A stretch of DNA of 64,000 bases from Meghimatium bilineatum (Eukaryota; Mollusca; Gastropoda; Stylommatophora; Philomycidae). Position 1 is the stretch's first letter. Each line of letters begins with the position of its first letter. Made by a program: the position numbers and the translations under genes. Under the pieces are notes generated by a model. The model had not been told where the DNA came from and searched no databases. It saw only the letters and a list, made by a program, of their open reading frames with translations. Below are positions 491 through 33,900 of the stretch, piece by piece. Where the stretch lies: contig CM067311.1 of assembly GCA_034231615.1 (NCBI GenBank), positions 21,146,173 to 21,210,172 on the forward strand, given 5' to 3'.

Positions 491-844
491 GTGGTAACCT
501 ACTGGTGATGTTATGTCTATATTTCCTGATAAAAACCGCATATGCCACAATGTAGTCTCTGTCTCACTTAAGTTTTAATTGTTATTGTCATTAGACTTCT
601 TTCTCATAACATATTACTGCTTATCATTAATTATAGTGACATCTGCAAGGAAGTTTTTTGTCGCCTAGATCTGTTAAATGATGGGTTGTCCAACCACTCT
701 GCCCTTCCTAACTCACTATTTACACACATGGTGGAGAAAATTGTTATGATTCTGTGCTCCATTTTCAGGCCCAACAACGCACTAGTGAGAAGTCCATATT
801 AGATCATGTTTCATGATAGTGTCAATGTGTAGAATATGTTTCTA

Positions 845-7745: not shown

Positions 7746-7939
7746 CTACAGCTTGTCTAGTACACTGTCTAAGGATGGGATAGCTAATGATAAACCCTTT
7801 CTTTGTCTGATGGTAGCTACAATTTCAGCAGCTTTTGATCCTGCAGTCAAGGGGTCTCCAGGCAGAATTTGCCAGTGATCGAAAATGCACTGGGGGAAAG
7901 CCTGTCCACTTGTTTGAGATTTGAGCTCTTCAGAAAATC
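7746..7939 (-). CDS. EF2-like terminal coding exon
   Basis: Encodes G-F-S-E-E-L-K-S-Q, then [20 protein letters not shown] and ends [11 protein letters not shown] with TAG. The universally conserved C-terminal L-D-K-L of eukaryotic EF2 is present. Acceptor TTCTGAAG. Confidence 0.94.
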
Positions 7940-10900
7940 CTTCAGAAATAAAGAACAATTATGCAATAAGTCAAAAAATGAATTGTTACTGTAGACAGTT
8001 TGCTACACACATTAATTACAATAATACACACAATAATTGTGCTGATACTTTTTACTCTTTTATTAAAATATACATGACAGTATTCTATTATCTTTGATTG
8101 AAACTCAGTGTAAATATGACTACTTAGGAGCACTGGAACTGTGTAAATATGACTACTTAAGCCCTTGGCTTAAATTATTGGCAACAATTTGAGTGTATTA
8201 TTATTGTACAGTCTAATTTATGAATTTACAAGGATAATACTTCTTTATATTATGGAGGAAACTTAAAAACCTTTATATATATATTCGTCTCGCAATAGGA
8301 AACATTATTTCAAATAAATAATAATAATAATCCATTTGATTCCGGATGCAAAGTTTTTCCTATCAGTAATATGCTTGTCAGCACATTTATTTGTCTCATC
8401 ACAAATCTGCTGTGTAATAGTATCATGTGATACACATTCAAAGATTCTTAAAATGATTGCATGATCAATGTTTTGAACTAGTACACAATTATTTCTAGAA
8501 AATGTGGACCATTACTGTATCACATGTCTGACCACGAATTTGAAATGTGCGCTGCATATATCATCTGAATTACCAATATCCTCCAATAAGTACTAGCATA
8601 ACAATGCAAATTAACACTTTCTAAATCACTTGCTGAAATTGAGTGAGCTTTGGCATATTTGTAGGTCAAGGAAAAATGGTTACACAAAGAAAGGTCATCT
8701 GTGTCAATACACAGAGGTAGAAATTAAGCTTACAAACATGTACAATTACATAATAATCTCAACTTAAGAGCACTGACACTGTAAATATGACCACTTAAGA
8801 GCACTGAAACTCAGTTTAAACATGACTACCATATAACTTCGATTATTAACCGACCTGTTTATAAGCCAACCATGTGACTTTACTCAAAGACAAAAGCCAT
8901 AACCCTGTGTATTAACCGAGATGGAAAAAAATGAGAAATTAGAGGCAATAACAATTTTGTGAAAGCAACACAATAGGGATTTCCAGTGATTGAATAGTTA
9001 TACCATCAATATTGGTGAAGGTTTATTGAAAGTCAGCACTGTTTTTGATTGGCTTGTAAAAATAGGAATAAAAATGAGTGGGAAAACAAGAAAACATGAT
9101 TTACTGTAGTGTGATGTATGGCAGATGAAATACATCTGCTGCCTCTGATAATTTTTAAGCACAAGATAGCCTAAGGGAGCTAAGTTCCCTAGTGGGGTCT
9201 GCACCATCAGTAATGCACTGAATGAAAGTGAAGATAAGGCAATCTTTCACGAATAAGGAGATGACGATGTTATTAGTGATGTTGAGGATGACAATACCTA
9301 CCCCCATATTGCCACGACAGAAGATGAATTCCATGAACTGCTTGGGAATTCAGACACTGATTCAAGCTTTGAGGGATATCAGTGATTTTTGTGTGGGATT
9401 GTGCGATGATTGATTTATTTAATGCAAGATCTGGCGAAATTTACAGGTGCCAAAAAGTTTTTTATTCTAAAAATTTTTAGGTAATTTGTAGAAAATGTCA
9501 TTGAACCAATAGATAAGCCAGCCAACCCCCCCCCCCCCCCCCCCACTACCTGAGTAGCGGTGAAAGGGAAACGAATTTAGGCTTATACACGAACATATAA
9601 AGTACTTAGGAGTACTAAAACTCTGTAAATATGACTGCATAAGAGCATTAAAATTCAGTGTCAATACAACTGATTACTTAAATGCATTACTTGGGCACAT
9701 ATATGGATTCATTTTCTGCATTAACATCTATTAAAATTTTTCTAGTTAAAAATATTAAAAAATAAATATTATATAAATAAATCTGGATAGGTTACCCCCA
9801 AAAAAGTATTAAGCTACTTATAAGATAATGGAAGAAATAATAATAAAGAAATAGGACACTACAAATTACTGTTTTGGTCAAATTATCATCATCAGGTGCC
9901 ATGCGAACTGATGTAGGTGATCATGAATCTCCATTACTTTTTATTTCCAATATTTTTTATCAGGATCATTGTTGACTCTTTGCACTCTTACCTATTTTCT
10001 CATATTGTCATCCTCAATCTCGCCTGTTGTAACTATGTTCTCCAGTCATCCCTGTCTCATACTGTCCTATTATATCCAAACTATTGTATTTCTATTTTAC
10101 AGTAGGCCCCTCATCTAATGTTTACGTTATTTGGCCCAACACATTAATGTGCAGTAATCATTTTGTTAGGGTTTGCATTCCCCAGCTAGTGGGGTGTCCT
10201 AATTGTTTACAGGGCACGATCCTTGTACTGACTCAACACAAGGATTGTCCATGAGCATGACAATTCCCTCAAGCACTGAACCCTTTTGTCTTAGAATAAT
10301 CTTAGATAAAGAATTTGTTAAATCATTTTAGATAATAGATTTTATCTATGCTCAAGATCTTAGCATTGTACGTACTTTGACAAATTTCACATGATGCACT
10401 TACCAAAGGCTTCATTGACAGGCAAATGAGCTTTAACAGTGCATAAAGGAGACCCAGAATGATGAAGCTGCTCTACCACTATTCCTCTTCTCTTGGACAA
10501 CACACTCATGACACTGCCCATTACTGAAGTGGGACACTATTAGAATAAATATTATTACATTTAAACAACTTACAAGCAGTGACAAAATCAAAGTATTTCA
10601 TGTTTAAGTTCTTTAGAAAATCATTTCTTTTATTCTTCTTCATTTTAGTTCATTCTAAAAATCCTACAGATTAACAGGATGTAGTCCAGAGAACAGAATG
10701 CATTGTGTCTTGGTTTACAGTTAACTGCAATTTCTGACACAACCAACTTCAGCATGGCAACTGGGTCACTTTATATGAAAGGGATAGCTAACTCCACTTC
10801 AAAATCTCAGTCACCTCTTGTAACACAACAGAAGGTAAATAGTGTCACTATTCTTTGATCCCCTTTCAGTTCTGGTAACACAGGTATTTGCTTTTACTGG

Positions 10901-13900
10901 AAATTTTTACCTAAAAAATTATCATTTGCTCATTTTTGTGCATAATTCCCTCATATCCATGAGATCTTGGTGACCTTTTTTTGAAAAATTTAAATTGTTA
11001 ATGAGGGGGTTTTAACCTGCCATTTGGCTAAATTTCTAGTACTAAAAGTACATGTTCAAAATTAAAATTAGTAACAAAAATAAAAAATTGTTCAATATCT
11101 GTTTTACAGATAGGACAAATACACAGGTTCAACGTTTCTATGAAAGTCAGTTACCCTTTGAGTTGAAGAAACAAGTTAATAGCATATACTGTTCGAGATG
11201 CAAGTGATTTTCTAGGCAATATAAATATGTTCACTAGGTCCCAACTCCGCTGGACTGGCCACATCGTCCGTATGCCAGACAAGTGCCTTCCAAAGAGATT
11301 ATTTTTTGGGGAGCTGTGCGAAGGTAAACGTTCAAGTGGAGGGCAGAAAAAACGCTTCAAGGATCACCTAAAAAGCTTTCTCAAGCACTACAGCATCATC
11401 CTAGCTCCTGGGAGACTACAGTACTTGATCGCTCAGCCTGGCATACCCAGATCACTGCTGGCATCACGAATTTGAAAAAGAAAGAACACTGCGGGCAATC
11501 CACAAGCGCAAGAAGCGGAAGGACAAATCCGTAAATTCTCCTACCCCGAACCGTCAGCACTCCTGCATGCACTGCAATAGAACTTTCCATGCATGAATCG
11601 GACTCATCGGGCATCTACGAACTAACAAACCAAATTAGTTAATTACCAATTTTAATTATTATTATTATTTATTTTCCATCGCATTTAATGTTTTTCATGC
11701 CATGCTCATCTGCGCTTGCGAAGGAGGAACACTATCATCAAATATGTTCAGTAGGTTACCATTGCTTGTGGAAAAATCCAGCTGCATAATTCTGTCACAT
11801 ATCTGAACTCCCCTTGAGTACCACATAATATTTTGTTTAAGTTAAATAAATGAAGTGAATGGCATTCACAATTGACTATATCACTGCAAAATAAAAGTGA
11901 TTATAAAGGAATGGTTATTATTGCTTACCTGAGTTTCAACCATGTAGACTGGCTCAAGCAAAGCAGGTGATGCTGTTAACATGGAAGCATACAACACCCT
12001 TCGTGTTGTTGGGATGATCTGGCCACCACCATGATGAGCAGGATCTGAGTGCACCATGGCATCTTTCAAGTCAAAACGGACACCTCTCATGGTTTCATCA
12101 CACAAAACACCCTAAAATATAACATATTTTTGTGAGTTCAGGTTGATACAGTGCTTACAGACTATATATGTGTAGTGGTTATGTTATGTAGTGATTATGT
12201 TGCACAGTGGTTGTGTTGTGTATTGATTATGTTGTGTCCACAGTTCAAGAAATCATGTTCTGAAATCCATGCTACTTAATTCAAACAAGAATACTCAAAA
12301 CTTAACTGATGTGTTCCAGAACATAATGTGTTTCCCAATAAAACTTTAACAAAACCCATCTCACAGAATATTTCTGCATCTTTCTTCTGCATTCATTTTC
12401 GAACTCCTATAGATTAATAGGATGTTTTTTTGGTTTTTTTTTGCTTTATACCCCTTTATGTCTTGCAGCGTCTGGAGTAGAAGACTTCTCTGGAGATGGC
12501 TTTTTTGTTTGCTTCATATATGCTTGTTTTCATTGACTCTTTTATTTCTGTTATCCATCATTTATGTTATCCCTAGCTTGTATCCATCATGTCTGTATAG
12601 TAATGCTTTTGGGCACTGTCTGATGGTAGTCTGGAAGCATACGAAAACAACTTAATTTGTTGTCTTCTGATGTAATCCAGGATTGGCATTGTGTTTGTTA
12701 GTCTTCTGATATTTTCGTTTCTGATTCTATCTCTTATCATCACTCCAATGATTTTAGAATTCTACTTAGACAAGTCATTTCTGTTGTAACAAGTTTTCTT
12801 TTGGATTCTGTTGTTAGAGTACACATTTGACATTGGTAGCACAGTATGATGATCATTTTATTTAGTGCAACTTTGGTGTTCGTGCTCACATATTAGTTTT
12901 TAAAAATAGGAGAGATCTGCCCCAAGATCCAGTATGCTATGTTGCATTTATGTTGGATTTCTTTAGTATTTTTCCCATTATATGATATGATGCTTCCAAG
13001 ATAAGACCCACACTCATTCTAACTGCAAATTGATTACCTGTGTAACTACTTCTACACAAGTTGATTAGGTGTTGTGGAATCCCATATTTTGATAGTATTG
13101 TTCATAGTTGTTGTCTGTCTACTTTATCGAAGGTTTTTCTTGCTCGAAAAACATGATATACAATTCTGCTAGTTGTCTGAGTGTAAAATGACATCTGTGC
13201 AGCTCTTGTTCTTGCAGAATCCCACTTGAGTGCTGTTAAGCTGTGGTTCTATGAATGCTCATAATTTTCTTTCTAGAATTTTGTAGAAAATTTTTCCCAG
13301 TGTGACTTAGAAGTGAGATGCCTCTGTACTTTGCACAATATTTTTTGCTTCCTTTTTTCTTCCAGATTACAGTGTTTTTCCAGTCTTCTTGTGTGTTTCA
13401 TATTATATTAATAATAGGATATAGTCCAGAGATATTTTGTCATAGTTTACAACTAGTTTACAACCCTTTCAGCCATACATATGACTTCATACATATGACT
13501 TCATGAAGGCTTTTGGGTCACTTTTATGTATTGGTAGGGAAAGCCAAGCCCACCCCAAAAATCTCCTTATTCATCTCTATTGATGTGCATGCCAGGTCAT
13601 AGTATTGCTATTATTTGCTCCCCTTTCAGGCCTAAGCAACACATGGCATCAGTATATGTTCTTATAAAAAGTCTTTTTTCAGTCATCAAATTTGATTTTG
13701 TAGGCCAGCATGAGTCATGTTTCAGGCTTTTCCACCATACAGATGCCCATTAATTAATGTTAAAAATAAACAAATATTTACTAAAACAGCAATTGTCAAC
13801 TTACTTCACCAGAAACCCACTGGAAACCTGCACATACTGCATCCTTGATGGTCGATGTGCTAATTCCATGAGTTGAATCAATAAGTATGTTTGGACCACT

Positions 13901-16900
13901 ACAGTTTGGACCAAAACACCAAATCTTGCGTGCTTCATTGATATCAAATCTGTAAGTGTCTGCAAGATATTTGGCCCTTTCCTTCAAGTCCTGGCTCAAC
14001 TCATTCTAAGATAAGGTAAATTTAGAAATTATTAATCTATCCCAGTTTGTAGTAACACTCAACTAAATATTATTAGTTCACAAAGTTTACATGCAAAACT
14101 TTTACAATAAATAGTAAAAAATATGAAAACTGTCATCATTATCAGATGCCATGCCAACAGGCGTATGCAGTCATGGATGTCCACAATTCTCTATTTCCAG
14201 TATTTTTTATCAGGATAGCTGTTGACTCTGCCATGCCATGATGTCAGACAATCTAATATTTTCTCATGTTGTTATCCTGTCTTTCTTGTCTTCTATCTTG
14301 CCTGTTGTAACTATATTCTCCAGACCTCCCTGTCTTACAAAGTGGCAAAAAAATTAAGATGGTCTCTTTCTGATATTATAATGTGACCCCTGTCATGCAT
14401 TTGACTATTAGTGAATATGATCTAGCAAACCAACAGTGTAGAACTAAAACGCTCATGGGAAACATGGAGAGTTCTCAGGCCAGGGGCAGACCTTGCAAAT
14501 GATGAATAACAGAAATAAAAGAGTCCATGAAAACAAACATATATGAAGCCCACAAAAAAACCATCTCCAGAGAACTCTTCTACCCCTGATGCTGCAAGGC
14601 ATAAAGGGGTGCAAAGTGAAAAGAAAGAAGTGAATTGAAATAGCAATGTTTCCATGTTCTGGTGGGTCATAATACTCACCAGGAAATGGAAACATAAACA
14701 AATCTGAGAAAGTGAAGTTTATCTATCATGATACACACCAGGAAACATGATCAAATAAAGGTATCCTGATAAACTTCACTTTCTCAGATTTGTTCACATT
14801 TCCATTTCCTGGTGGGCATCATACCAGATCAACTTCTTTTTCTCAGATGTGTTCGTGTTTCCATTTCCTGTTGACAATCATGAAGAATAATTTTCATTTT
14901 CCCACACTTGTTGATGTATCAATCAAATTTCTGAGTCACTCATCTCTGAGTTATCTTAGTTGAAAAACAAGTAAACAATATCCATTATATAGGAATAAAA
15001 CTGTGGACAACCTGGTTTGGAAGCAAGTGATAAACACCTCTATAATGTATCCCAACATGATTCCTACAAATGTGAATATGTCAACCTTTTTAGGTTAATT
15101 TTTTATAGTTTGGTCATCCCTATGTCATGAGTCATGTTGAATGTCATGAGTAGTTCCTAATAGATGTTAAAAAGTTATGCTATCACTACACAACAACACA
15201 ACACAATGGCAGTGAGATTGATCCACTGACCATCGGCTTGTTAATTTTCCACACAGTCAACTTTAGTTACATCATTGCAGAGGCTACTGTGTAAGTGATA
15301 TGATGTTTGAATTTCAGCCAATGAAATGGGACTGAGCACTTATTGGCTGTGATAAATCTTCTAAGAGGCAAAATTAGAGATTAGTTCTCCATAAAACAAA
15401 TAATTATACCTAGATAATACCAGGATAATACAAAAAATTGCAATTTAGATTTAGGTTTCTGCCAAAGACGGGTGTATCAGGCCATTGGCACAAATAAAAC
15501 GGGAACACAATGCATTTTTGTCTTTGGATTACATCCAGCTGGAAATCTAGTAGGACCATGGTCAAAATAGATCAAGTGGGAGTTTGAGAATGAATGCTGA
15601 AGAAGAAAAAGATTTATGGAATCCAAGGCTATATTTAAATAAGGGTAGACAAGTCATTGTGAATTAGGTTAACAAAAAAAAATAAAAACAGGACTTAATA
15701 TCACATTAATTACACTTCATAATTAGCATTGTATCTACATCACAATCTTACATCCAATAATAGTAATTACCTACCCTTTCAAGTTCCTCACTAAGACCAG
15801 CTGGCAAAGGGGAAGCAACCATGTACAGTCTGTTCAACTTATTAGCAGATTTTGCCAAGCACACACGATCTGATTCACTGGTCACTGTCTCACAATATTT
15901 GACTACAGGGTCTGATTTCTAATAAATAAAAAATGAAACGATTATTTAAATAATCTGTCAAACTGTCAAATAATGCATGTTTCGCGTTAAGGGTTGAAGG
16001 GAGAGATTTTGTAGCTGTGTGATAAAGGCCGCATGCTCTTGCTGTCACCATATCATGTTCAGGGTGAGTTTTTTTAATTTACTCTCCGACAGAAAAAACT
16101 CAGTACTTACCAGGGATCGAACTCTAGACCTCACTAGTGTGAGACCTTAAAATAGTCTGGCACTGGTAAACTTACAGACAACATATACAGGTGTCAATAA
16201 CAATAATGATAATTGAAGTTTATAGGATTGTGTTTTCTACAGTTCTCAAATACTTAAGAGAATAATACAGTTCAGAAGTAACTGTCACATGATTACCTGA
16301 ACTCATCTCTCTAATAAAGCATAAACAAATTTGTATCCTTATTTGAAGAGACTGGATTGAAGTTGGACATCTTGCTATTGGTGCAAGTAAAGGATGAAAA
16401 GGTGCCGCAGATTAACTTCCTTGTACTTGGGTTTCCCTACATACAGTCCATTCCTCTCAATGAAGTAGCATGCTGCCTGTCAAGCGTACCACTCATACCT
16501 CCGTATCTTTAATCAATAATCCCCAGGATCTTTAAAAAAATTCAGTTTGCAAACAAATCATCAGAAGTTTGATTTGAACCTGCGACCTCTTCAACACAGA
16601 ATGAATGGCTCCACTGTGCTACAGAGATCACTAGTGGAAAAAAATAACAACACATTGATTCTTCATTCTCTGGGCTGCATCCTTTTGGAAATCTAACAGG
16701 ATGATTGTCCTGATGATAGATAAATCCAGCAGGAGTTTGGAAACTAACTTTCATTACTGCATGTTTTCCTGTGAAGGCGTGCAGGGCTGTGGAAATAAAG
16801 GCCACTTTGCCATAGCAGACACCATGACATATACAAGAAAGATTTTCATTGTACCTCCAAAAGAAAAAATCCTGTTCCAATCATGAGTTGACGCCAGGAC

Positions 16901-19900
16901 CTCAAGGGTCTGAGGACGTCGTTCTAACCATATGGCCATGCTCTCTACTTTGGAAACAAATGCTTAAAAACAAAACATCTATGATGCAAACCTGCATCTA
17001 GTCCACATGAGTAGGGATTTTCTCACTAACATCTCAAATATCAATAGATATTTATAATTTGATGTAAACATAATCATCTAAAATTTAGATAGGTACACAG
17101 AGTGCAACTCATGTCTGCATTCTCAGTGACTCAATGAACATGATGAGGAAAATACAAGCCGGATGTATTCGTGAACAGTGGCTTGATGCTGTGTGGGAAG
17201 GTCGAAACTGGAGGGTATCACATTTATTTTTGTGCCTGGTCACTTGCATATTCAAGGGAATGAGAGAGCAGGTATATTAGCAGGTTTTTTCACTGTATAG
17301 AATGACAGGGTAATCAATAATAACATATTTAACTCTTTGAGAAAACCTGCACAATCAAACAAATTTAATGAAAATGATGATTCCTTTTAATGTCTAGAAT
17401 AAAGTGCTGGGCTTGAATTGTGGTGAGGCAAGAAGTGAACATTATTATGATGGGCAAAGAATTGTTGTTAACCAACAGAGAATTGGAACTCTCAGACATT
17501 GTGTAGTTGTGGATATGCTCAGGGAGAAATCATAACACCTATGGATGTTTCCTGTGTGCAGTGATGATCTCTTGACTAATTAACTATCAAAAATTTGTCA
17601 GTAAGCTGGACAACATTACTATTGTGTTGCTGAAGACAAAAGAGAAGCAAAGAATAGAAACACTGACCTGCCATACATGTCATAAGATGTGTCTAAGGAG
17701 GACTGAAAATGTTAGGCCCTATGAAAGATCAAAGTGACAAAACAGTTTCAAGCTTAAGTGATATATATTGGGCAAGGAGACACATATATTGCAGCCATAC
17801 GGTAAACCACAACACAATACAATAATTTTTGCAGGCTACATTATATTCAAATACAGAAGGAGGAGAAAGTAGCATTGTCACAGAGAAAATGATTTTTCAT
17901 AGAAAAGTTACAACTTTATTACTAGTATTAGCCAGTTTTATAACAAAACAAAAACCAGAGAGAGAGAGAGAAAGAGAGAGAGAGCGGGATGGGGGAGAGA
18001 GAGACACAAACACAGATTTATATATAAGAAGTAATTGGTAAACATCAAATAACTTAAAAGACACAAACAGGAAACCCAGAATTGAATAATGATTTACAGT
18101 TTTAACTTGTCATGATGTATCTCATGACCAGTACATCACAAATAAAACAGACTTATTATTTATAATTACTTCCACTATCTTTCCTGGAATTATTGTAAGT
18201 CTCAATTCCCCTTATCAGCTGTAGACTTATTCCTATTTACATATTGGTTGTTTGTAATCAGTTTACATAAATAATTAGAAGCCAGAAACTTTGATTTGGT
18301 TAAATGATATGAAAAACCTATAAACCAATAAAATACCTTAATGGGCACTCCAGCATATGTCTCTTCAAGATCTTGCAGAATGATCTCCAAATGCAGTTCT
18401 CCCGCACCAGCTACAATGTGCTGACCAGCCTCATTGGTAACCTGTGTTAAATATAATGTTTAGTATCAGAAATGAAGTAATATAATTAATTAAGATAGAT
18501 TAATAATATAATCTTCATTATGCATAGATATTCTGAGATTCAAATATTTACTCATAAAATGACTATTTACAACACCATTACATATAAAAATGTATTCCAA
18601 CTACTACCACACACACACACACACATGATGACAGTGTTAATTAATTAATCTAAAGAAATAGATTAAATCATGGAGCGAGATTGCCTTACAAAGTAGAATG
18701 AAACACTAAGGCTGCCATGTTAAGAGGCTACAAAAGAGGCTTGGGAATGGAGTTACTATCCCATGCCATAAGTAAGACACAAACCATATTGAAATTGGAT
18801 GTGTCAGGTTAAATAGTGCAGATACCTGCAGCTAAGCTGTAAACCATGATACAACACACTCTGTTCTCCATCCACATTCTGCTAACCAGTAGGAGTGGAG
18901 AAATAGTAGTCTACTAAAGCAAAGTTTTCGCACCAAAAGTTCATTAAGCACAAAAATCTTTTGTCTATATATTTTTACTGACATCTGGCCATATATATTC
19001 TGCAAAATGAAATTTAAATTCTTTATGTTTGAAAAAAGTTTGGTCAGTTTTCATAAAAGAAGCCTTAAGATTGAACATGAGAAAAACTATAGATGAAACT
19101 TTTACTGCAGGACACAACTAAAACATTTTCTTAAATAAAAAATTTATATATGACATAATTCTCAAAAACTGTGCTTCTGGCATGACATGATGATCCTGGG
19201 ATACACTGGTATGCCTCCTTCTATGGTCTCCACTATATCCGTAAGCACTGAGGAAAAATCCCTTCACTACATAATATAATTCTAAAAATCTTCAATGAGG
19301 AAAAAGCTTAAATATGATATAATTCTTAAAATTATACAAAGGAAAAATCTATACTACAGGACATAATTCTGAAACACTATGTTTAGAAAAACCTCTACAG
19401 CAGAACACACATCTGGAAAAAAAAACTTAGAAAAAAGCTTAATTACAGTATTCCTACACAACTGTGATGAGCAATACAAGTAACACATGCCTGCACTAAG
19501 GGCTCTGCCTTGTTCAGCCGTCTTAATCCTTCAACCAGCTTTGCAAGATCTTGTGGGCTGACTACATCTACAGCAACTCTCACAACTGGACTTACTGAAA
19601 ACTTGAGAACCTAGATAAAAAGATAATTATAAAATTAAAATAATGAAATATGATTTTCTGACAACTTCACTAAGAACCAAAAATGGCTACTTGTTTTGCT
19701 ACATATTATTCACAACAGATGAGTTCTTGATTCATTATTGTTCATGCACCATAAGTGATAATGACCATCTGTTACATCCAATTTATGAAATTCATTAATT
19801 CTTTGTCTGTGAGTTGATAACTTACAAGCCCTTTGTTAGCCCCAAAGGTCCATGGACAAGCCGGACATGGTATGATCACTTTGGATGTTGTTTTATCTAC

Positions 19901-22900
19901 AACTTTAGATGTTTTTTTTATCTACCTGAATCTTTCTAGCTAGTCTCTGCTGTTGAGCGGCTGCATTTCTCCTTATTTGATTCATAAATAAGTGGCGTCT
20001 GCTATGGCAAAGTGGCCTTTATAGAAAGCCTCCCTGCACTTCTTCATAGAAAAACATGCAATAACGAAAGTTCTTTTTTAAGTAAACATATTAATAGTGA
20101 ATCCAGTTTACATTGGGAACTGGCTCATTAAATTACAGATAGGACGTTAATAACAGTAGAAAATCAACAAGGGCATCTTCATTTTCTTAAGCACTAATTG
20201 GCTTACAGGAATGTCTATTACATCTTCGTAATGCTTATACTGTTAAATCTTATTAATCAACACACTGTTCTTGTCATCTGTGTCTTTCTTACATGTACAT
20301 GTAATAGTGATATTATAAGGAATTTAGACATATGTGTCTATGAATTGATTATGTAATTGCTTGATAATTTCATAATCTAAAAATATTATCTTAATTTCTA
20401 CTTTTTATCTTTTTTTTTTAAATTGTTATCATTAATTTTTAAAATTAAATTAAATAGTATTTAAAATTAATAATTAATAATAATTTATATTAAATTAAAT
20501 TATAAATTAATTAATATTTTTTTTTAATTTTTACATTTCATTTTTATTTAAATTTTGTAATTCTTCTTCCTGATTCGTCCAAAGGCGCTTGCTGTGCTTC
20601 TGGCATGACATGATGATCCTGCAATACTGCTGCGCTAGAATGCCTCCTTCCATGGTCTCCATCTATATCTGTAAACCCATGACTTAGGGTGAAATGGTAC
20701 CAGACTGGGTGCATCAACAGACAATGCCTTCCATTGATTTATATCAATTAAATCAGTGAGGTGGATGAGTGAGGAAAAATTATAACCTGTCCGGTACTTG
20801 CTGGTGTTTGTCCATAATTGTCTTTGTCCTCCTCTGCTTCTTCCACCTTTGACTGTTTCCTATAATATTCTTTTGACATGGAATCATGTCAGCATACATG
20901 TCCAAACCATGCAAGTTTTTGTCATTTTGTCATAAAAGTGCGCAAGTCGCTACTTGTTAAACCTTTCGCTCACATAAATATTGCGATTTAGAGACTAAAC
21001 ATATATCTATAAACTCCCCAACACAACCATGCATTTGAGACAAAAAATTTATACAAGTGTGGGTGTCACCTCAGTTACTCACTGAAGGGGGCCTGTATTT
21101 TTGTAAGAAAGACTATAGGGCCTAGGCTGTCAAGAGCTACCTGCTTACAGCTAAAGGGACTACTTCATCATGATCATATTCCTCTTTCATATTAAGATTC
21201 TAGTGTCAATCTAAATCATACAATTTATCAGAGTTGGTTGGTATGTATGGTGCTAAAGCCCACCCCCTTTAACAATAGATGCATAACTCTTGGTTCAAAC
21301 TTTAGTCTTATTAAGCACAAATATCAGGATGAGTTACCTTCAAATTATGAGCATGCTCAAAGGTTGAAATAGTTCCAGTTTTCTGCAAGAACTTGTCAAC
21401 ACCAACAAGACCAACAATGTTTCCACAAGGAGCTTCATCTACACCCTGAACTGAGCCTCCCATCATCATTACAGTTCTAGAACAGGTAAAAATTCAAACA
21501 CAATGAGAATATAATAGAGCATACAAATTTATTTTATGTATGAATACAATGTGTTGTATTGTTGAGTAATTAAGCACATTTTCTAGTCAGGCTATTTTGG
21601 TTTTTCCTTAGAATTTATGACAGTTGGTAACAATGCGACTTGGGGTTAGATGTTACACGATTTTGTGGCAAAGTGTCACATTCAAAATGTATTTTAAAAT
21701 GCTGATGTCATGAGGAAGTTGCCGATGCCACACTAAAGCTAGGAGAGACCAGTATATATGGGTATAATGATCACAGGGGTAAGGACACGTAACATATATA
21801 GATAGACTTATAAATCATAATACAAATTCTTTTTATAAACACAAGCACATATAAACCTATAGGCCTCTACATGTTGACAAATTATTCTCTTGACTTCACA
21901 ATATTTTATGTAAACAGAATGCTACAAAGATTTTATTTAACGTAGGAAATATTATAAACCAGTTTTTGTATTCCAAAGAGAATCGTACAGAGTAATGTAC
22001 ACAATAGTAAAAGTCATCAAAATATTGTATTAGGTCATTCAGTTATATAATTTAATATATTATATTACCTTGTAATCGTTTGAACGTACAAGTCCCGCTT
22101 CTTCTGCATGTTTGGATCATAGTCTGGTCCCATAATCCTCACTTTCTGGCCATGATGTACTGTTCCTGAAAAAACTCTTCCTACAGCATAGAAACGGCCT
22201 TTCTCAGGAGAAGGTACCATTTTGGAAACATACATCATTAGAGGCCCATTGGGATTGCAAGCCTTCATTGCTGTAAATATAAATTAAGATAAAGAAATAA
22301 TGTACATTTTACTATACTAAATTTATGAGCTTACTAAAAAAGAAAACTTAACACCATGTTGGAATGAATACCTGTGTGCTAAGATGTTCAGTTTCATTAA
22401 GAGAGCCATGGTTGTTCCATGATTTGTGTTGGCTTCCTAGTTGGGTGAATGTTTTAGAATTGCTTCTATACCGGTAATTACAAATAAGAGGACACCAAAG
22501 AACAATGTTTCTACAGCATTTAAAAGAAAACTAAGGACTTATATCAGGCTTGTACTTAGAATGGTTGACATGCACTCGTTGAACATGTATATAGTTGACA
22601 CGTACTGGCACTTTGCAATTTCAGAGTGAAATATTTTAAGCAATGAGTCAATAGAGAAAAACAAATGGGTTAACTCATCAATAGCAATAAGATAGAGGAA
22701 CAAGTAAATTCATTTGTTTCAGTAAGAGAATTAATAATAGCAAAGATACTTAATTATATCTTACTATTATTACAAATTTAACTTACAAATTATTAATCAA
22801 TCTATCTGTCTATCTATGTTCCTTTGGCACCAAATATGGTGCATAGGACAGAAACTAGTGCTCTCCAGTTTGAGTGATGTGATGCTACTGTGTGTAATTC

Positions 22901-25900
22901 TTGCATGTTGTTGAGACCCATAGTCATACCTTCTTTGATGGTTGTTTCTGTGAGGGGTTTCTCTTGGTCTTATTTTTTTCTTTTGCAATCTGGTGGTAAT
23001 TTTAATGCCTGTAGTCTGTTGTTATTCATTCTAAGTACATGTCTGATATAGTCCTTTATTTTCTTCTAAATGATGTAATTACTGGTATTAATGGAAATAT
23101 ATAATTACTTATCCTTGTTAGTAATTACCTTCTATTTGTATTGCTGTGACACTCCCCTCCTTGTTGTTTAAAAATGTATAAATGATTAACTCCATTGAAC
23201 TTGGGTTATCCCATATATACTATCCCCCTCAATGAATCAGCACTTTGCCTACTGAGAGTACCACTCATAGCATGTAACTCCATAGCTTCAAGCAATAATA
23301 ATCAGGGATCACAGAAACAATACACTGTGTAAACAATATGTTGTGAGTGGGATTTAAACCCACAACCTGTTCTAGTAATTTAGTTATTAATCTTAAATAG
23401 GTGATTCATACCAAATTTATGAACTATTTTATTGTCTGTATTTCTATAAATTTCAGCTATGTTAGAGTGATCATATCCTGCATTTGTCAATGTTAGGTTT
23501 TAGGATACACATGGTTCTAGGATCCACACAATCAATTATGCTTGAGTTTATAATAAAATTCAACAATCCATTCCTTGATAAAATAAATAAAATAATTCAA
23601 ACATATCCTATATAGAACATTACTTTTCAAATGTTGAATTTTTAAACACCATGCTTACCTTCTGCAGCTTCATCATCTAATGGTCCTTCATACAGCATCT
23701 CAGTGCGGTAAGTTTGAGCCGTCACAGGGGAAGGAAGATGCAATATAATCATTTCCAACATTGCATCAGCAGCAGGGAGCCAAGTTTTCATTGCTGCTCT
23801 CATGAACTCTTTGCCATCAAGCTCAAGGTCATTGGATGTTAAGTGATATCCCATTTTTCCTAGTAGCTCATTGGTCTTGACTTTTTCACAGTCAGTGGCT
23901 GTCTTGAGAATCTGAGAGCAGAAATAAAAACATAAACTGCAGACAAAATGTTAGAAACATTTTATTTGAATTTTAAAAATATTAGTGCTACAAATGTTAC
24001 TGTGTCTAACCTATCTTTTCATAATGGCTATAGACTGACATATGTCATTATAATTTGTTTGAGTATTCTGAGCTCACATTTTTTCTTCTTCCTTGTTCTC
24101 TAGTCAAAAGTCAGATGCTGATATGGATTTAATCAGTGAGCTGTACTGTGGTCACCAGCCACAAAGCAGAGCCATATAGCTTATCTAATAGAGCTATTTT
24201 ATTTTTTGGTGTCTTCTATTATTTGTAATATTAATGGCAATATATAATTACTTGTTTTATAATATTCTATTTGTATTAATGTGACCCTCCCTGATAGTAA
24301 ATATAAGCTATTTTAGATGGCCATAGTCTTTTCTTGTGGTTTGGTACAGTGGGTAGTTCTGTAAAATATGTTCTGTGTTTTCTTGAGATTTTCCATAGGG
24401 GCATCTATTGATGTCATCAACTTCAAACTTCCTGTACATGTGTTGTTTGAGTCTGATGTGGCGTGTTCTCAATCTGAAAGTGATTACTTGTTCTTTTCTT
24501 CCAAGCTTGTGGATAGCGTCATATTTTTGGCTGCATGGGTAAGTTGAGTTCCATTCAATATTTATTAAGCTTTTGATAATGTACTTAGTTAGTTAGTTAG
24601 TTAGTTAGTCGTCGGATCATCATCACTGCTTACTGGACACATCCATAGTTGCTCCGATCTCTCCTTGAGTGTATCCGCCATTACACTTCTGCTGAGAGTA
24701 CCAGTCCTATGCTGGTTGACCATCAATCTTCTGCGCCCTCCAATATGTTCACTTCTAGCAACACCGCATTTCAATCCCTGATCTTTAATCCTAGCCATTG
24801 AAAAGGAACCATCATCCACATTAGTCTCACTCTTGATGTTATATCTCTTCAGGAATTCAAAACATCAGCGCGATCCATTGCCCCATTGCCCTGTGTCACA
24901 CTCGCGCATGATGCCAGTTGATCCGCTCTTTCATTGCCTCGAACGCCCACATGTCCCGGCACGAAAATAAATGTAACCACTTTCAGGCTCACCTTTCTCA
25001 AGGCCTCAATCCACTGTTCGCGAACGAGATCCACTTGTAACTTCTTAATCATACTCATAGAGTCACTCAAGATGCAGACCTGCGTTACCTTATGTGTGCG
25101 TAGCCCCTCAAATGCCCTGGTCACCGCCATAGTCTCCATGGTCATACTACTCGCAGTGACCGCAAAGGCACCACTCTCCTCCTTGATCGTTTTTCCTGCG
25201 CACTGAGCTGTGAAGGCCCAAGCACTGCGAACATGCCTAATTACAGAACCATCAGTGTATATAATCACATCCCCCTTTTTGATATTCTCACTGACCAAAG
25301 CCTGCACTTCTTTCTCCACAGCTGTGGGACACCATTCTCTGCATTCCCTGCTAAGTGATATTACTACTGTCAAACAAGTTACGAAATCTGTGGGTAGACC
25401 TATCCATTCCGCACCTGCTGCCACATCCTGCAATCTGCACACGCTTTGTATGACATCCTCAGCACGTCCCATCCATGACCTCCCTCTCTAGTCTGCTGCC
25501 TTTAACTTTCTGTATTTCGGAATGCAACGGGTGTTCCTTATCTGCATATATTTGAAGGTACGCCCGTGCACGGCAATACTGTAATCTATGCTCAGCTGTT
25601 GGGCAATCAAGTAGGTATCGCATAGCTCTTGTCGAAGTATCTCTTGTGCATCCTAGTATGATACACATTGCTGCATTCTGGATTCTATTCAGTCTTTCGA
25701 TCTGAGTTTGGCTAAGAATTAGAATTGCCAGTGCATATTCCACCACAGCCACAACCAAACCCTGGTACAAAAGAAATAACAACCTCTGCTCACACTGCGC
25801 AGCAGCCATATCCTTCATTGCTGCTAAGCCTTTGCCTGCCCTTATGATAATGTGGTCAACATGTTCCCTGAAACTCAGGCTTCTGTCAAAAAACACACCC

Positions 25901-27866
25901 AGATATCGCATTGTGCTAGTTTTTTCTAAACTTTTCCCGGACAACGAAACTTATGGCATTGGTGTCTTTACCATATGATTGTTCAAGGAAAACCACGTCA
26001 CGAATGCCTTAGAGGGATTAACCACTGCTCCCGTATCTCAACACCAACTTGTCAGTCTGTCAAACCCTCCTTCTGTAGTTCCATGATGTACTCTTCTCAA
26101 TTTCTGCCCTGTCTATACACCAGAATATCATCGGCATATGACATCGTTCTGCCAACACCTGTGATTTGATTGCCAGCGATATGTACTGTGTATATATTGA
26201 AAAGTACAGGAGATAGAGGCGATCCCTGTGGCAGACCAGGGCTAATAACCGTTGGTGCAGATATCCAGCTACCACACTTAAGAACTACTATCCTGTGCAT
26301 CAGGGTGGCACCAACGCACCGCACGACAAAAGGATTTAATGCAAGATTTAACAGCTGGTCCATCAAGATATCCAAGGATAACCTATTGTACGCATCCTCA
26401 AGGTCTCTTGCGACTGCACATGTCTCCATGTGCGAATCGAACCCCTCAAAAACATCCTGCACAAATATGGCTGCATTCTGCCATGTCTTCTTTCCTGGGC
26501 GATACCCTCCTAACAATGTTGGTAAACATTTATTTCTTTCAAGATAACACGATACCTTCCTGGCCACAATTTTTTCCAAAAGCTTGCGTATCATATTCTG
26601 CATTGGTATTATTCTGAAGCTTTGTATCCTAGTGTGGTCCTTCCCCGGTTTGGGTAGTGGAACTAAATAGCTGTGCAACCAGTCTTCTTTCACTGTGCCC
26701 TTTAGAACGCTATTATTGAACATGACTGTCAACTCTCCAACTCCTCATCCGTTCGGACGGATGAGGATAATGTACTTCATTTCTGAAAATGAGACCAAAT
26801 CAATCTGTTGTTGACAATTACTTCCAGTTTGTGCTAGCTGGTATGCTATCTCATTTCCATTGATTTCTGAGTTTCCCATTAACCTGGAATCCATTGGAGA
26901 ATTACTTCTCTTGCTTGGTTGTTTAGTTGAGATAGTAGTGTTTTTAAGTCATTCATGTGGAATGTGTATCGGTTCTGGGGAGCTTACACTGCAGATTTGA
27001 CATCAGTCAGGATCACTATCCTTTCTTTATTTAGGCAGGATGGTTCCAGTAGAAAAAGAGTGGTGTCCTTTATAACTTCACACTCTATCTTGAAATTTGT
27101 AGAATAAACACTTGAGTCACATTATATTGATGAAATTATTTAAGGTATTTTCTTCTTCAATATTTTTTTCAATATGTTGCATTAGAAAATGTTTTAATAA
27201 AACAGACAATTGAATAAGGAACAGAGTGATATTATATTTTTAGTTAAAAATGGAATTTGTGTTAAGTGCTTACCCTGATAAGAGGCTCAAGAATAAACTG
27301 GTTAAACCCTCTCAGAGACCCTTCTGTCATTTCAGTAGTCCACTGTCGAGTCTTGGGATTGAAATAGTTCTCTCCCCACAGTCTTTTCATCAACTTCTCT
27401 TCCTTAATATTAAACTTGGAAGAATAGAGACGAGCAAATTGTCGTAAGTTGAATCCCCAACCATGTAGACCTGAACCAAATGCAACATTGCCTTTGGAAG
27501 GATCCATCTGAAAATACAAGAAGTCTTAGATTGCATATTTTGGATGAAAAGACAAAAGATGATATTAAGAAATCAAATTATAGTATTTATTCTTTTGTGA
27601 GCTCTTACTTGTGTTTGCATACATTTACATGCCTGTGCATGTTGTGTGGGTATCTTTCTTATATCTATGTATTGATCATGTTAGAAATATACTTGTGTGT
27701 TTGTTCCTGATATAATCGTATTTGTATGTAAACGTGCGCGTGCATGTGCGTGTGTGTTGCTGTGTATGTAGGCAACTATACACATGTATGTGTCTGTATT
27801 ACATTTATGCTTTGATATTTGTATGTACTTTCATATATATGTTTAGATATTTGTATGTAGATGTTC

Positions 27867-27927
<61 letters not shown>

Positions 27928-30900
27928 TATTGATATTTATTCAAATGGAATGTATATATACTTGTTTAGTTATGTGTTTGTATGTGGATGTGGAGGGAGC
28001 CGCGTTAGCGCAGTGGTTAGCACACTGGCATCGCATATGAGTGGTCTTTGCTTCATTCCCCAGTTGAGGCGGAAATGTTTTTCAGATCGCAATGGCTCCC
28101 AGGTTGACCCAGCCTTAAATGGGTACCAGATTAATCTGGGAAGTAAAGAATGCGAGGGAGAGGAGATTGCTACTGCCCTCATTTGCAGAGCCTCTGAAAT
28201 GTGAGATCGCTAACATCTCACACCCCTACGACATTAATAAATTCTATGGGTTACTTTACTTTTATGTGGATGTGTATATACTTTGATGTAAATCTATCCC
28301 ATATGCTATCAATTGCTATTCTTCCTTGTACATTTCTATGTTCTCTGTATCGATTTATAGCCCCTCCCCTTCCTGCGTACTAATTTCTTTTTGTTTACTA
28401 ATGGTTTGCCTCATATGGTCGAGGCCCGCTTCTTTCAACCTAGGACTGGAGTCCATATTGGTTATATCAGGGCGCTACTAATTTCTTTCTCTATCCATTC
28501 CCCTTTTATCTCCCGCCTGTCTACGCCACCCTGTCTTAGCATCGCTCATTGGTTCCCCCTTTCTTTGCAATTTTTCATCTTTTACTTTCTTCTTCCATTT
28601 CATCCTTTATGCCATGCCCATTTCTGTCTGTCAATATTGCACTAATTTTAGCACACATATTGAAAGCACTATTCTGCACCTCCTACAATACATGCGCTGG
28701 CATCGATACTGGGCAATGATTTCTGGTAAGGAAACCATTGTTCCAGTCATCTTGGTTATAAATTTAAATTAATTTTTTTTATGGTTATGTTTTCTTGACC
28801 ATTATTTGTTTCTTGATAAAGGTCCCAATAGGACTGACAAGTCGATAATTGTCTTTGTTCTATGTTTTATTGTTATTTATTATTATTTTATATTGATAGT
28901 TAGGTATTCATAGTAACCTGTTCACTTTATTTAGCATTTACCTCTTATAGTATTTAGAAATTTGTTCATTGTTCTTTAGTTAGTCAAAGATCATAGCACT
29001 AGTGGCGGCAATGAAAAGTTATTGATTTGCTTTTTGTCTTCTATAAAACACTCAGGTTTTGGACAAAGTGCAATTTTCATGTTATCTCATCATCTCAACA
29101 CCCCCCCCCCATATTCAAAAACCAAATTGCCATGCCATTTGCATTGGGTTCACAAGGTTGCTTGTTTGAAAGTTAGCCTCAGTGTCAGGTGTACAAATAC
29201 TTTTAGTAGTCCTTAAAGAAAACTATGTTTTGGAAAGAGCATGTCACCACAATAATAGTAAATTTTGTATTACAACAAAATGTGCTCACCATTATGTCTC
29301 CCATGGGAGAATCTTCCTCAGCATAGGTCCCAATCAGAGCATTTACATTTTCAACAACACTGCGAAGGCTGCAGTAAATTTCCTCTGGGCTAAGACCTTT
29401 TTCAAAGATGGCCCGATCCAATTTATTCATCATGAGCACAGGCTTAATGCGTTCACATAGAGCCTGGCGGAGAACAGTTTCTGTTTGAACACTCACACCT
29501 GTGTTAATGGAGAAAAATAAAGTTAGATCTCGCAGCAGTAGAATATTGTCAACATTATAATAAATTTTGGTTAATAGTACAAAAACACCAAGGACATTCT
29601 CTGACACTTTTGTTATTTATATTAATAGCAAAATCCTAGTTAAGATGTCATGATGTGGAGTTACTTAGACAGAATTTTACATTTTGTAATATGCATTTGC
29701 AACATCACATGTTTTAATATTAAAAAGGGTAAAGTTGATAGAATCTGTATGTATGTACTCTGGATATTGCATGGGTGCTAGGTTCCTATCTGTGTCTGAA
29801 ATGTCAGTAACTGAGTAAATGTACAACGGACCAGCAATGTTTTCAAATTATTATCAAACAGAGAATCATGGTACTAATTTTCAGCTGGGTAACTATGACT
29901 CTCAGATAATTTCCAGCTTTTTCTCACTGTTCTAAACTTTTTTCCAGTTGCTTTATTTAATGTCTGTCAACAAATTTAATTTCAGTATAAATGCTTTATA
30001 TTTGTAACAGGGTCTGTGTGCTATCTCATTGTGTTTATCTCAATATATTTGTTCAAATTTTCAAAATAAATCTTTGAGTGAATTTGTAAATATATCTATG
30101 CTTTTATATTAAAACTTATTTATTGAATGTTATTTGCTCAGTCATCACTTCAGGATTATTTAATATTATATTATGTGTTATCTAAAGTGAATAGCTAACA
30201 ACTGAAATGTGCAGACAATGCCTTGTGTATTTTCTATTGTATGACTTTGAATATTCCTGTAAGGGAGTCAGCCACCTGTATAAGTGGTCGCTCTGCAACT
30301 GGGCAGATGGGGCACCCATTTGTCCCGGCATAAAGTATTGTCAAAGGTAGCTGATATAAATGGATAGCAATGGAAAACTACCACATTATTCTCCCAAAAA
30401 GAAAGTCATGGCGACACACAGAAGTAGGCCTACAGTGCTTATTTTATGTATAATTTAGTGCAAGATTATCATTGCTGTCACTAGGCATATCTCATTCTTC
30501 AGAAACAATAGCTGTGGGTACAGTTTTATAATTTTTTTTATTTTAGCTCTTACCTATTAGGTCTAGGCCTACTTCCTATCCGATTTTCAACAATTCTCTA
30601 ATCTCCACTGACAAAATCAAAAACACAGTTGTTTACCGACACATCACTTGAAATAATATCTTAAATTTTAAAACTCAAAGAATAATAAAGCCAGATGTTT
30701 GCTAAATGTTTGATCTCTCTTACTAGTGGAACATGAAGTCATTTTGCTAATGTCAGGAAAGCTGAACATACCTTGTTCGAATTTTAATTTGAAATAAATG
30801 TCACACTTTGATGTCATGCACCATTCAGCCCAACATATCTGATAGCATGATTTCTGAGTATCTTGAACCCTCTATGGGATGGGACAATCAAACCAACTTC

Positions 30901-33900
30901 CAAAACTGCTTTTGTCATTTCTTTCTCCTGGCTTTTGTTGTTGCTTTGTTTATGTGCTGCTTCCATGTCAGTTTATCATCAAAAGTAACTCCGAGGTATG
31001 TGGGTTGTTTGTCTTCTTTCAAGAGCTCTCCATCTATTTTGATATGACCGGCTTTTTGTTTTGGTGAGAGGGTAAAAAGTGTAGTGCTGCACTTATCTGT
31101 GTTAATACTGAAGCACCATCTATTTGCCCATAAGGTTAGGGCATCGATAGCTCTTTGAATTTGTTTAGTGGCCACTGTCGCATGTTCTTCCGTGCACCAG
31201 ATCACCAGCATACATTGCCACTTTGATCCCATGTGGTAGTTCAGCAACTAGGTCATTGATGTAAACCAAGAAAAGTGTGGGTGACAGGACTACTCCCTGG
31301 GGGACTCCATGACGCAGTAGAACTTTCTTGCTCTTGCGACCATCTAATTGTACCCTGGCTCTTCTATTATGCAGGTATGCTTTTACCCATTTGTACATTC
31401 TTGAGCTAACCCTGCAATTTCGCAATTTCTTTAGGAGCCCTTCTTTCCAGACCTTATCAAATGCTTTTCTGAGGTCTATCCATACTGCTAGTACCAGTTT
31501 CTTATCTTGGAAGGCATCCTCAATCTCTTGGGAGAGGTAGGTTGCCTGATCTTCAGTAGAGTAGCACTGTCTGAAACCTGCTTGCTGTGATACCAGAAGG
31601 TTTTCACTTTCAAGGTACCACTGCATCCTAAGATTGATAATGCGTTCCATTGTTTTGCATAGACAGCCTGTGAGGCTGATGGGCCTGTAGTTGGAGACTG
31701 TGTTGCCATCTTTTCCTGATTTGAGGAGTGGTATCATTATTGCTTCTCTCCACGCCTGTGGTACATTACCCGTGGACCAGCTTGTGTTAAAGATCTGCAG
31801 TAGCTTTGCTCTTGCTGCAATTCCCAGGTTTCTAATCATTTCATTGGACACTCCATCAGCTCCAGGGGACTTTTTCATTTTCAATTTGGATATTGCATGC
31901 TCTAGTTCTCTCATTGTGATTGGTGCCTCCATGACTTCAGGTATAGGTTCGCCTTGTCCAATATTTTGCTGGTTCTCTCGAACCTCCTGTTGTTTGTCTG
32001 GGCTGACTTTGATGTTATTGTCTTCTGCAAAGGAATCTGCAAAGTAATCAGCTGCATGTTTACCTGTTAAAATGTTTCTATCTTTATAAAGCGTGATCCT
32101 GGTATTTCTCCCTGTACCTTCATCATTTAGTTGTTTTACAAGTTTCCATAATTTCCTAGTATCTCTTTCTAGGTTCAGCGACTCTGTTTTTTCTTTCCAG
32201 CTACTCCGTCTGGCTTGTAACTTGGCTCTTTGAAATTTAGCCTTTGTTTGCTGATATTTGTTGTGATGTTCTTGGCTAGGTCTGTTCTCAGCCTGCTGTC
32301 TAGATGTTTCCATCTCATTTTGCAGCTTTTCCAGTTCATCATTCCAGTAGGGTTTGTAGTTTTTGCGTGCCCCCCTGGGTATGGTTTTACTAGCAGCATG
32401 TAGTATACATCTATTAAATTCACTCAATGCTCTATTGATGTCTTTGTCCAAGTTCATGTCCTTAGCTAGAACAATGGTTAAATGCTGGTACATTTTCTAG
32501 TCTGCCCTCTTATAGTTCCACCTAGTGAGCATGACGCTGTCCTTGGTAAATTCATTGTGGATTTCCAGAAATACTGGTCTGTGGTCACTACCCCTAAGCT
32601 GCTTTCCAACGACATGTGTGATGTTCCATTCCAGGCCTGGTGAGTGGAATGCCAGATCTGGTGTAGAGGTGGTGTGCCATGCTCTCGAGTAGAAGGTTGG
32701 TGAGTCAGCTGGCTGGTTAATAAGGATGAGATTATTTTCATCCTGCCAGCTCTCAAGTTCCTCACCTCTCTTGTCGATATGATCGTAGCCCCAGCTCTGA
32801 GAGTGGCTGTTGAAGTCACCACACACCATAAGTCTCTCTTTGGAACTGTGCCTAGTGCCAATGGTTTATCATTTGGGCAGTAGTAGTTCAGGAGATGGAA
32901 TTCTGCACTGTCTGTTTTTAGGTGGAGCATCTGGTATTCTGCCCCTTCCATATATACTTCCAGCTGACATGCGCTGATATTGTTTTTAACAAGTGTCAGA
33001 ATTCCACCCTTTCGTCTGTCCTTTCGGTCAGACCGGTAGCACTGATAGCCTCTGATTTTGAAGGCTATGTCGCTGCTGAGGTGTGTTTCTTGGATACAGT
33101 ATATATTAACTTGTTCTTCACTGAGGACATTTTCAAGTTCAAATTTTTTGCTGTATCCATCTCTTTTACTGTTGACACCCTCAAGCATTCCAGTGCATTA
33201 TTTTTATTGGTCATTTGTTTGTTCGTTTGTTTGGCCAGTAGCTCTCTATTCCCTTGCTTCCTGGCTTCTCGGGGCAATTGAGAAGGACTTCCAGTAGCTG
33301 AGGCCTGTCCCTTTCGAGGTATAGGGCCTGGCACCATCCCTGCCTGATCATCTGCCACAGGGCAGGCACCATAGCTGTTTATAGATGCAGACATGTTTCC
33401 ATTGTGTTTTGTGTGTGACATCCTGATTATCTATGCGCCTTTTGGCTGGTTGCCTCCGTCTTCAGCACTCTGATTACTTGGGTCTGGACTGTTGTCCTGC
33501 TCGAGTAGGACTGCCCAACCAGTCTTAGTTTCCAACCCCTGATGGCTGAACTATACCCCATCACCACTTCAAGGTGCTGGCCTCGATGTGGTAATATTAT
33601 TCTAAACTCATTATACTTATCTTTGTACTCACCACTTACACAGTCTACCACAACCATTGCACCATCAACAATACGCAGTGCTGCTGTCACTTCTGGGGAA
33701 AAATCCACATGTCCTGGACTATCTACTAAGTTGATGAGAAAACCACTGCCCTCTGATCCATCTGGTCCAAGCTCTTTAAGATCTTGACTTCCAAGGTCAT
33801 AGTAGAGTGAGATAGCTCTGTTAAGTTTAACAAAATGTACATAATTTTAGTTATTCTCTTCCATATTAGTCACATTCTCTAGTACAATATATAAAAATTG

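Follow-up and report, generated by a model that had tools for sequence, protein, structure and literature searches.

An intact eEF2-type gene of Meghimatium bilineatum is best explained, with moderate confidence, as a specialised and old eEF2 paralogue that would still be a translocase-type GTPase, with altered decoding-centre contacts and restricted use. The gene lies in a window of 64,000 nucleotides (C14:21146173-21210172), which is the whole stretch analysed, on a contig no shorter than 21 Mb, and the search covered the 1.61-Gb assembly of 32 contigs. Its diphthamide loop is encoded by a single minus-strand exon (12111-11929), bounded by an ag acceptor and a gt donor and translated into 61 residues. 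An altered loop in an EF2-like protein had been proposed by the initial annotation for exactly this interval, and is confirmed; the strand, a changed second tip loop and changed surroundings of the eEF2-kinase site go beyond that proposal.

Exons were mapped by tblastn of human eEF2 (identical to PDB chain 11hv_v) against the window, and the matches are collinear on one strand from 35813 to 7746. With splice sites placed, the paralogue spans 35813-7746 (minus strand), and the 14 exons found comprise 2517 bases, or 838 codons followed by TAG, in a single frame. The intact 838-codon frame reported earlier thus exists in the spliced product, but no contiguous ORF of that length is present at the locus. 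The first exon found (35599..35813) carries the P-loop AHVDHGKT and switch I. It is followed by exons at 33633..33817 (DSPGHVDF motif), 29290..29498 (NKLD motif), 27274..27507, 23659..23911 (split in the canonical gene by one more intron), 22069..22270, 21338..21476, 19491..19610, 18337..18441, 15775..15918 (second domain IV tip loop) and 13805..14005. The series continues with the domain IV exon bearing the diphthamide loop (11929..12111, phase 0 on both sides) and an exon at 10404..10536, and closes with the last coding exon (7746..7939), which ends in LDKL and TAG, with an AATAAA-like signal about 340 nt downstream; all lie on the minus strand.

Every acceptor is AG, and every donor is GT except one, at exon 8 (19491..19610), that is read as GC. 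At this spot CAG/gcatgt stands where the canonical eEF2 gene of the same genome shows CAG/gtatgt, and the GC donor is preferred because it falls where the canonical gene has its intron; an alternative GT lying two codons further downstream (TGT/gttact) was set aside, the frame being kept with either. The canonical gene also has a GC donor of its own (CAG/GCAAGT), after its diphthamide-loop exon at C2:92689494. At its 35813 end the first exon found is immediately preceded by an acceptor, and its first codon is that of residue 2. Since the canonical gene carries its start codon alone on an upstream exon (C2:92652748-92652750), the start methionine of the paralogue would likewise lie on an upstream exon, for which two upstream scans gave no convincing candidate.

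Mobile elements occur around and within the gene. Upstream of it, an intact 621-aa transposase ORF (DDE_Tnp_1_7, E 8e-67), presumably of the piggyBac type, occupies 60830-62695 on the plus strand, with a zinc-finger match below cut-off, and a further element, in which endonuclease, reverse transcriptase and RNase H are matched, lies at 52342-55706 (minus strand). Reverse transcriptase and RNase H ORFs, likely LINE remnants, are found in introns of the paralogue, on the gene's own strand, at 31165-33188 and 24849-26732. Among four contig ends sampled in the assembly, one has TTAGGG repeats, one another repeat, and two have N at the start. The hemocyanin domain PF14830, which marks molluscs, gave 50 matches on two contigs of the assembly and none in 14 control genomes, which are prokaryotes and hence no test of mollusc specificity; these matches point to a mollusc as the host.

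The encoded protein has the architecture of eEF2. Pfam domains PF00009, PF03144, PF14492, PF03764 and PF00679 (G, II, III, IV and C-terminal) score above cut-off in eEF2 order, and the GTPase motifs AHVDHGK, DSPGH and NK.D are all retained. No added domain exceeds its cut-off, an EFL1 domain match remaining under it (22 vs 30.9 bits). The best PDB matches are eEF2 chains at 1138 bits, followed by Snu114 at 635 and EFL1 at 433, and residue 5 of the paralogue aligns with residue 115 of human Snu114, so that the N-terminal extension of Snu114 is lacking. The loop that defines eEF2, HADAIHRGGGQ, is replaced by one that has the acceptor histidine and GGGQ and differs at four residues, and the gene is for this reason filed as an eEF2 paralogue rather than eEF2 proper.

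When the 61-residue loop exon was compared with the genome, three places were matched at E up to 1: itself, C2:92689312 (69%) and C1:124470497 (47%). The C2 place belongs to a complete gene at C2:92652748-92694356 for a canonical eEF2 (842 residues, loop HADAIHRGGGQ), which rules out the paralogue as the sole eEF2 of the species and upholds its earlier description as a paralogue. At the C1 place the loop reads AQEPIHRGGGQ, and this gene is presumably Snu114-like. The C-terminal 284 residues of the paralogue gave 14 matches, confined to both eEF2-type genes, the C1:124.47 Mb locus and an exon at C1:1.17 Mb that we take to be EFL1-like. As far as six-frame searches show, the genome holds two eEF2-type genes; these searches are non-exhaustive, an EFG_C profile search having listed neither eEF2 gene's own C-terminal exon. 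EFG_C matches at C25 and C15 were considered as further eEF2 copies and dismissed, since they do not read as eEF2; they presumably resemble mitochondrial EF-G2 and a LepA-type gene, and matches at C2:68.1 Mb appear to us organellar. A search of IMG/VR gave no relatives of the paralogue.

Identity with Snu114 or EFL1 is ruled out by the bit scores and by the separate Snu114-like and EFL1-like exons elsewhere in the genome. A related possibility is that the gene encodes a neofunctionalised GTPase acting outside elongation, perhaps in ribosome dormancy or quality control, as Snu114/EFTUD2 acts in splicing and EFL1/Ria1 in 60S maturation. Both of these old eEF2 duplicates have changed roles (PMC4342817), which speaks for such a fate; the much lower similarity of the paralogue to them, its identity with the canonical sister, the lack of an added domain and the absence of any special affinity to Snu114 or EFL1 make it rather unlikely. 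That the altered loop reflects lineage divergence of a sole eEF2, an assembly error or contamination is exceedingly improbable: the analyses run gave no support for it, and the separate canonical gene, the intron positions in common with it, the transposable elements around and inside the paralogue and the length of the contig all argue against it.

Sequence comparison of the two copies points to an old duplication. The paralogue is 59% identical to its canonical sister (502 of 844 aligned positions), whereas the canonical copy is 76% identical to human eEF2. The paralogue has 14 introns, counting a first one inferred from an acceptor without its donor, and the canonical gene 13; 11 of them, including the inferred one, coincide in place and phase, one further pair lies one alignment column apart, two are private to the paralogue and one to the canonical gene. 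The coinciding introns indicate DNA duplication of a genomic gene and rule out a retrocopy, and the 13 introns between the exons found, with no stop or frameshift, are contrary to a processed pseudogene, which would have no introns and a broken frame. Among 219 fourfold-degenerate codons that specify the same residue in both copies, 85 have the third base in common (38.8%), against 31.2% expected at saturation, so that synonymous divergence between the two copies is near saturation. An unconstrained frame would be expected to hold stops at such a distance, and the lack of any suggests that this one is under constraint. The initial annotation had held that the gene is not a pseudogene, and by sequence it is indeed intact.

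The paralogue has nevertheless evolved quickly, with changes at 116 of 492 sites (23.6%) on which human, fly and yeast eEF2 and the canonical copy of the host all agree; the canonical copy is changed at 32 of the 524 sites that are the same in human, fly and yeast, and the branch lengths are 0.53 and 0.18, respectively. Such a rate, together with the GC donor, the reverse-transcriptase remnants in introns and the start exon that was not found, would suit a redundant duplicate under relaxed constraint, that is, an ordinary eEF2 in neutral drift or a future pseudogene. This is unlikely, given that 838 codons have remained free of stops and frameshifts at near-saturated synonymous divergence and that 376 of the 492 invariant sites and the GTPase motifs are retained. 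In the best tree the paralogue stands beside all three animal eEF2s; long-branch attraction is likely, and the AU test does not reject a tree that pairs the paralogue with the canonical eEF2 of the host (0.085 when archaea are included, 0.206 when they are left out), so the tree leaves the duplication undated, either molluscan or older.

The altered diphthamide loop (12019..12051, minus strand; human residues 710-720) differs from HADAIHRGGGQ by A711S, A713P, I714A and R716H, one more than the three changed neighbours of the histidine counted at first. His710, Asp712, the acceptor His715 (codon 12036-12034), Gly717-719 and Gln720 are kept, and directly before the loop V707A, T708M and L709V are found. 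The second tip loop of domain IV (15832..15849, minus strand) has changed from SPNKHN to SANKLN (human P596A and H599L). Among 59 fully invariant 11-residue windows, the overlapping windows 706-716 and 707-717 have the most changes, 7 of 11 sites each; the permutation P value is 0.005 for 706-716 alone, a window picked after looking, and 0.12 for the best of 59. Window 709-719 has 5 of 11 sites changed (P 0.09), and when both tip loops are combined 7 of 14 sites are changed (P 0.028). The loop thus forms a hot spot within a protein that evolves fast throughout, its clustering by itself not being significant after correction, and there is moderate evidence that change has been greater at the domain IV tip than elsewhere.

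Changes are also present at other functional positions. In a 12-residue switch I segment (35619..35654, minus strand) the threonine phosphorylated by eEF2 kinase is kept (T57 counting the methionine, Thr56 in papers), and the Arg at +3 is replaced by Leu. The positions of yeast R66, N748 and R785, which are among the ribosome-contact residues tested in yeast (PMC9830224), read K, S and K in the paralogue, those of V28, L536 and S579 being unchanged.

Whether the histidine is still converted to diphthamide bears directly on what these changes mean. The initial annotation had suggested that the residue may be modified differently or not at all, which the sequences do not establish: the acceptor histidine and GGGQ are kept, the host genome has PF01866 (Dph1/Dph2 family) matches at two loci, on C19 and C12, as expected for Dph1 and Dph2, and there are archaeal precedents, R716H alone pointing to loss. 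Judged from these sequences, the chances that the histidine of the paralogue is made into diphthamide appear near even. The competing explanation is a second eEF2 that acts without diphthamide, in which the loss of R716 and the other changes bar Dph1-Dph2 from His715 and the tip has been re-shaped in compensation; it is compatible with a specialised paralogue, and its chances fall somewhat short of even. The kept His715 and G717-Q720 and the Dph1/Dph2-family matches of the host weigh against it, as does the retention of HRGGGQ in Snu114. For Snu114 no such modification is known. Diphthamide formation in mammals is blocked by Gly717Arg, Gly719Arg, Ile714Asn and Ser584Gly (PMC2816718); the paralogue is intact at 717 and 719 and has Ala at 714 and Thr at 584, the block by Ile714Asn favouring a diphthamide-free factor.

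Archaeal EF2 provides a broader comparison, for which the loop was set against the presence of Dph2 (a PF01866 match) in the same genome; a Dph2 gene in a genome is no proof that any particular EF2 carries the modification, and a missing one in a draft may reflect incompleteness, as in two genomes with R-type loops and no match (L123, L030). EF2 and diphthamide in archaea and parabasalids have reportedly been treated in a study. In a first look at eight genomes behind archaeal loci, seven had a match, including four Heimdallarchaeota and three Nitrosarchaeum with the loops HEDPVHRGAGQ, HEDAVHRGANQ or HEDTAHRGLSQ; the eighth (L030, 1.4 Mb) has HEDPVHRGAGQ and no match. For Asgard archaea, 125 of 148 genomes were matched and one loop each was taken from 50 (30 listed and 20 lower-ranked ones picked), leaving out second copies. 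A Dph2 match was present in 13, all of them with R716 and with V or I at 714. In the 37 without a match, residue 716 is T in 33, K in one and R in three, so that R716 is lost in 34; A714 is present in 30, HxDPAHTG in 28, and Q720 is lost in 26.

For Thermoproteota, 148 of 151 genomes were matched, and 50 loops were taken from 48 genomes (30 listed and 20 picked). All 48 have a PF01866 match, some of them partial, including that of the genome with H716 (profile 77-224 of 302). P713 occurs in 41 loops, A714 in 26, and S711 and H716 in one each; HEDPAHRGPAQ is found in 17 of the 50, and HSDPAHRGPAQ and HEDPAHHGPAQ once each. The last (L201, genome G245) is the only other R716H seen. R716 is present in 45 of the 50 loops, or 45 of the 46 with the acceptor histidine, four of the other five lacking that histidine. 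Two loops without it belong to second EF2s (L193 in G248 and L196 in G220) that have lost the diphthamide loop beside normal copies (L192, L195) in genomes that keep Dph2; they resemble the paralogue in having an altered tip loop beside a canonical copy, and differ in that the acceptor histidine is kept in the paralogue.

These surveys bear on a diphthamide-free factor in both directions. The paralogue shares P713, A714, the loss of R716 and even DAxVHxDPAH with Asgard EF2s lacking a Dph2 match, and the combination of lost R716 and A714 (HSDPAHH) is theirs; unlike them, it has H716 instead of the prevalent T716, keeps GGGQ, and belongs to a host with Dph-family matches. P713 and A714, at first taken from these Asgard loops as markers of diphthamide loss, were withdrawn as such because Thermoproteota with Dph2 carry both. 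The loop falls in the class HxDP[VA]H of archaea with Dph2 (Thermoproteota, Heimdallarchaeota), and each of its four changes occurs in at least one archaeal EF2 from a genome with a Dph2 match, partial in the case of H716. It departs from that group in that R716 is kept in 58 of 63 loops from archaea with Dph2, and the rest of the paralogue is plainly eukaryotic. R716H is therefore the main warning sign of diphthamide loss, the other three changes being common or seen beside R716 in genomes with Dph2.

Returning to a specialised translocase as the preferred reading, a genomic eEF2 gene would have been duplicated long ago and the copy kept under selection. The retained domain series and GTP-binding motifs make it most likely that the paralogue is still a ribosome-bound translocase-type GTPase. 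The loops by which the domain IV tip reaches into the decoding centre have both been remodelled, and this may cause the codon-anticodon helix to be held differently and translocation to proceed with altered speed or frame keeping. eEF2 kinase prefers Arg at +3, and its loss would, by this preference, leave the paralogue free of the usual elongation brake; eight alpha-kinase matches (unsorted) are present in the genome. Once phosphorylated at Thr56, eEF2 can no longer use ribosomes (PMC5742810). The paralogue would then serve a restricted tissue or condition, with canonical eEF2 handling bulk translation.

Yeast data bear on the two tip loops. The mutation I698A, which corresponds to I714A here, raises -1 frameshifting, as do H694N and P580H (PMC6193676), so I714A should matter for frame keeping. 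Mutants of P580 affect the H69 contact; nearly every substitution of this residue is tolerated, and among the A, D and F mutants P580A has the mildest effect when drugs are applied (PMC9830224). P596A is also present in an eEF2 with a canonical loop, and with the tolerance at P580 this suggests that the second tip loop change may be mild. That eEF2 is of eukaryotic type, 65% identical, with the loop HADAIHRGGGQ and the tip loop SANKHN, and is encoded on a contig labelled Bacteroidetes bacterium (L035), likely a eukaryotic contamination of a metagenome bin. These two observations weaken the case for a specialised translocase, as do the start-methionine exon that was not found, the single GC donor and the clustering P of 0.12 over 59 windows.

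Extra eEF2-type genes are known elsewhere. Compared with canonical eukaryotic eEF2, the paralogue shares the acceptor histidine with GGGQ, the C-terminal LDKL and, counting the inferred one, the intron positions given above, and it departs in overall identity, in both tip loops, beside the kinase threonine in switch I and at the yeast R66, N748 and R785 positions. Fish eef2l2 is a named extra animal gene of eEF2 type, known here by name and length rather than by sequence (861 aa in blunt snout bream; PMC12838102), and the name is also given in PMC3530609 and PMC5604996. Arabidopsis At3g12915, likened by description and not by sequence, is a putative second eEF2 isoform with a low transcript level (PMC9273596). 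A survey of translational GTPases in 1483 genomes describes two eukaryotic eEF2 duplications, Ria1/EFL1 and Snu114, both older than the last common ancestor, and many multicellular organisms with single-species paralogues, those of animals being near-identical isoforms (PMC4342817); a forerunner of the study on EF2 and diphthamide in archaea and parabasalids mentions archaeal EF-2 paralogues (PMC5875740). Many gene lists carry entries named elongation factor 2-like, and the altered loop is not claimed to be unique. In the literature searched, which took in few subscription papers, no animal eEF2 paralogue whose diphthamide loop is altered was described. The kind is thus already known, as extra eEF2 or EF2 copies, and an animal case so divergent with the acceptor histidine kept is regarded here as a new form of it.

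A divergent second eEF2 copy, altered at the tip around the modified histidine, suggests a second, specialised version of the translocation motor. A bolder and doubtful extension is that molluscs keep a second translocase working without diphthamide, in which R716H and I714A would block modification, P713, A714 and SANKLN would re-shape the tip as in Asgard archaea without Dph2, and the loss of the kinase site would free it from the stress brake. If this were true, such a factor could sustain elongation whenever diphthamide is not made. Under copper excess eEF2 is left unmodified in Arabidopsis and a human cell line, not in yeast (PMC9273596), an effect that would then be of note in an animal with much copper hemocyanin, the copper link being speculation. 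An intact animal eEF2 paralogue this divergent, changed at the decoding-centre tip and by the kinase site, would offer a natural experiment in how diphthamide and its loop function, and the gene is a candidate for specialised elongation.
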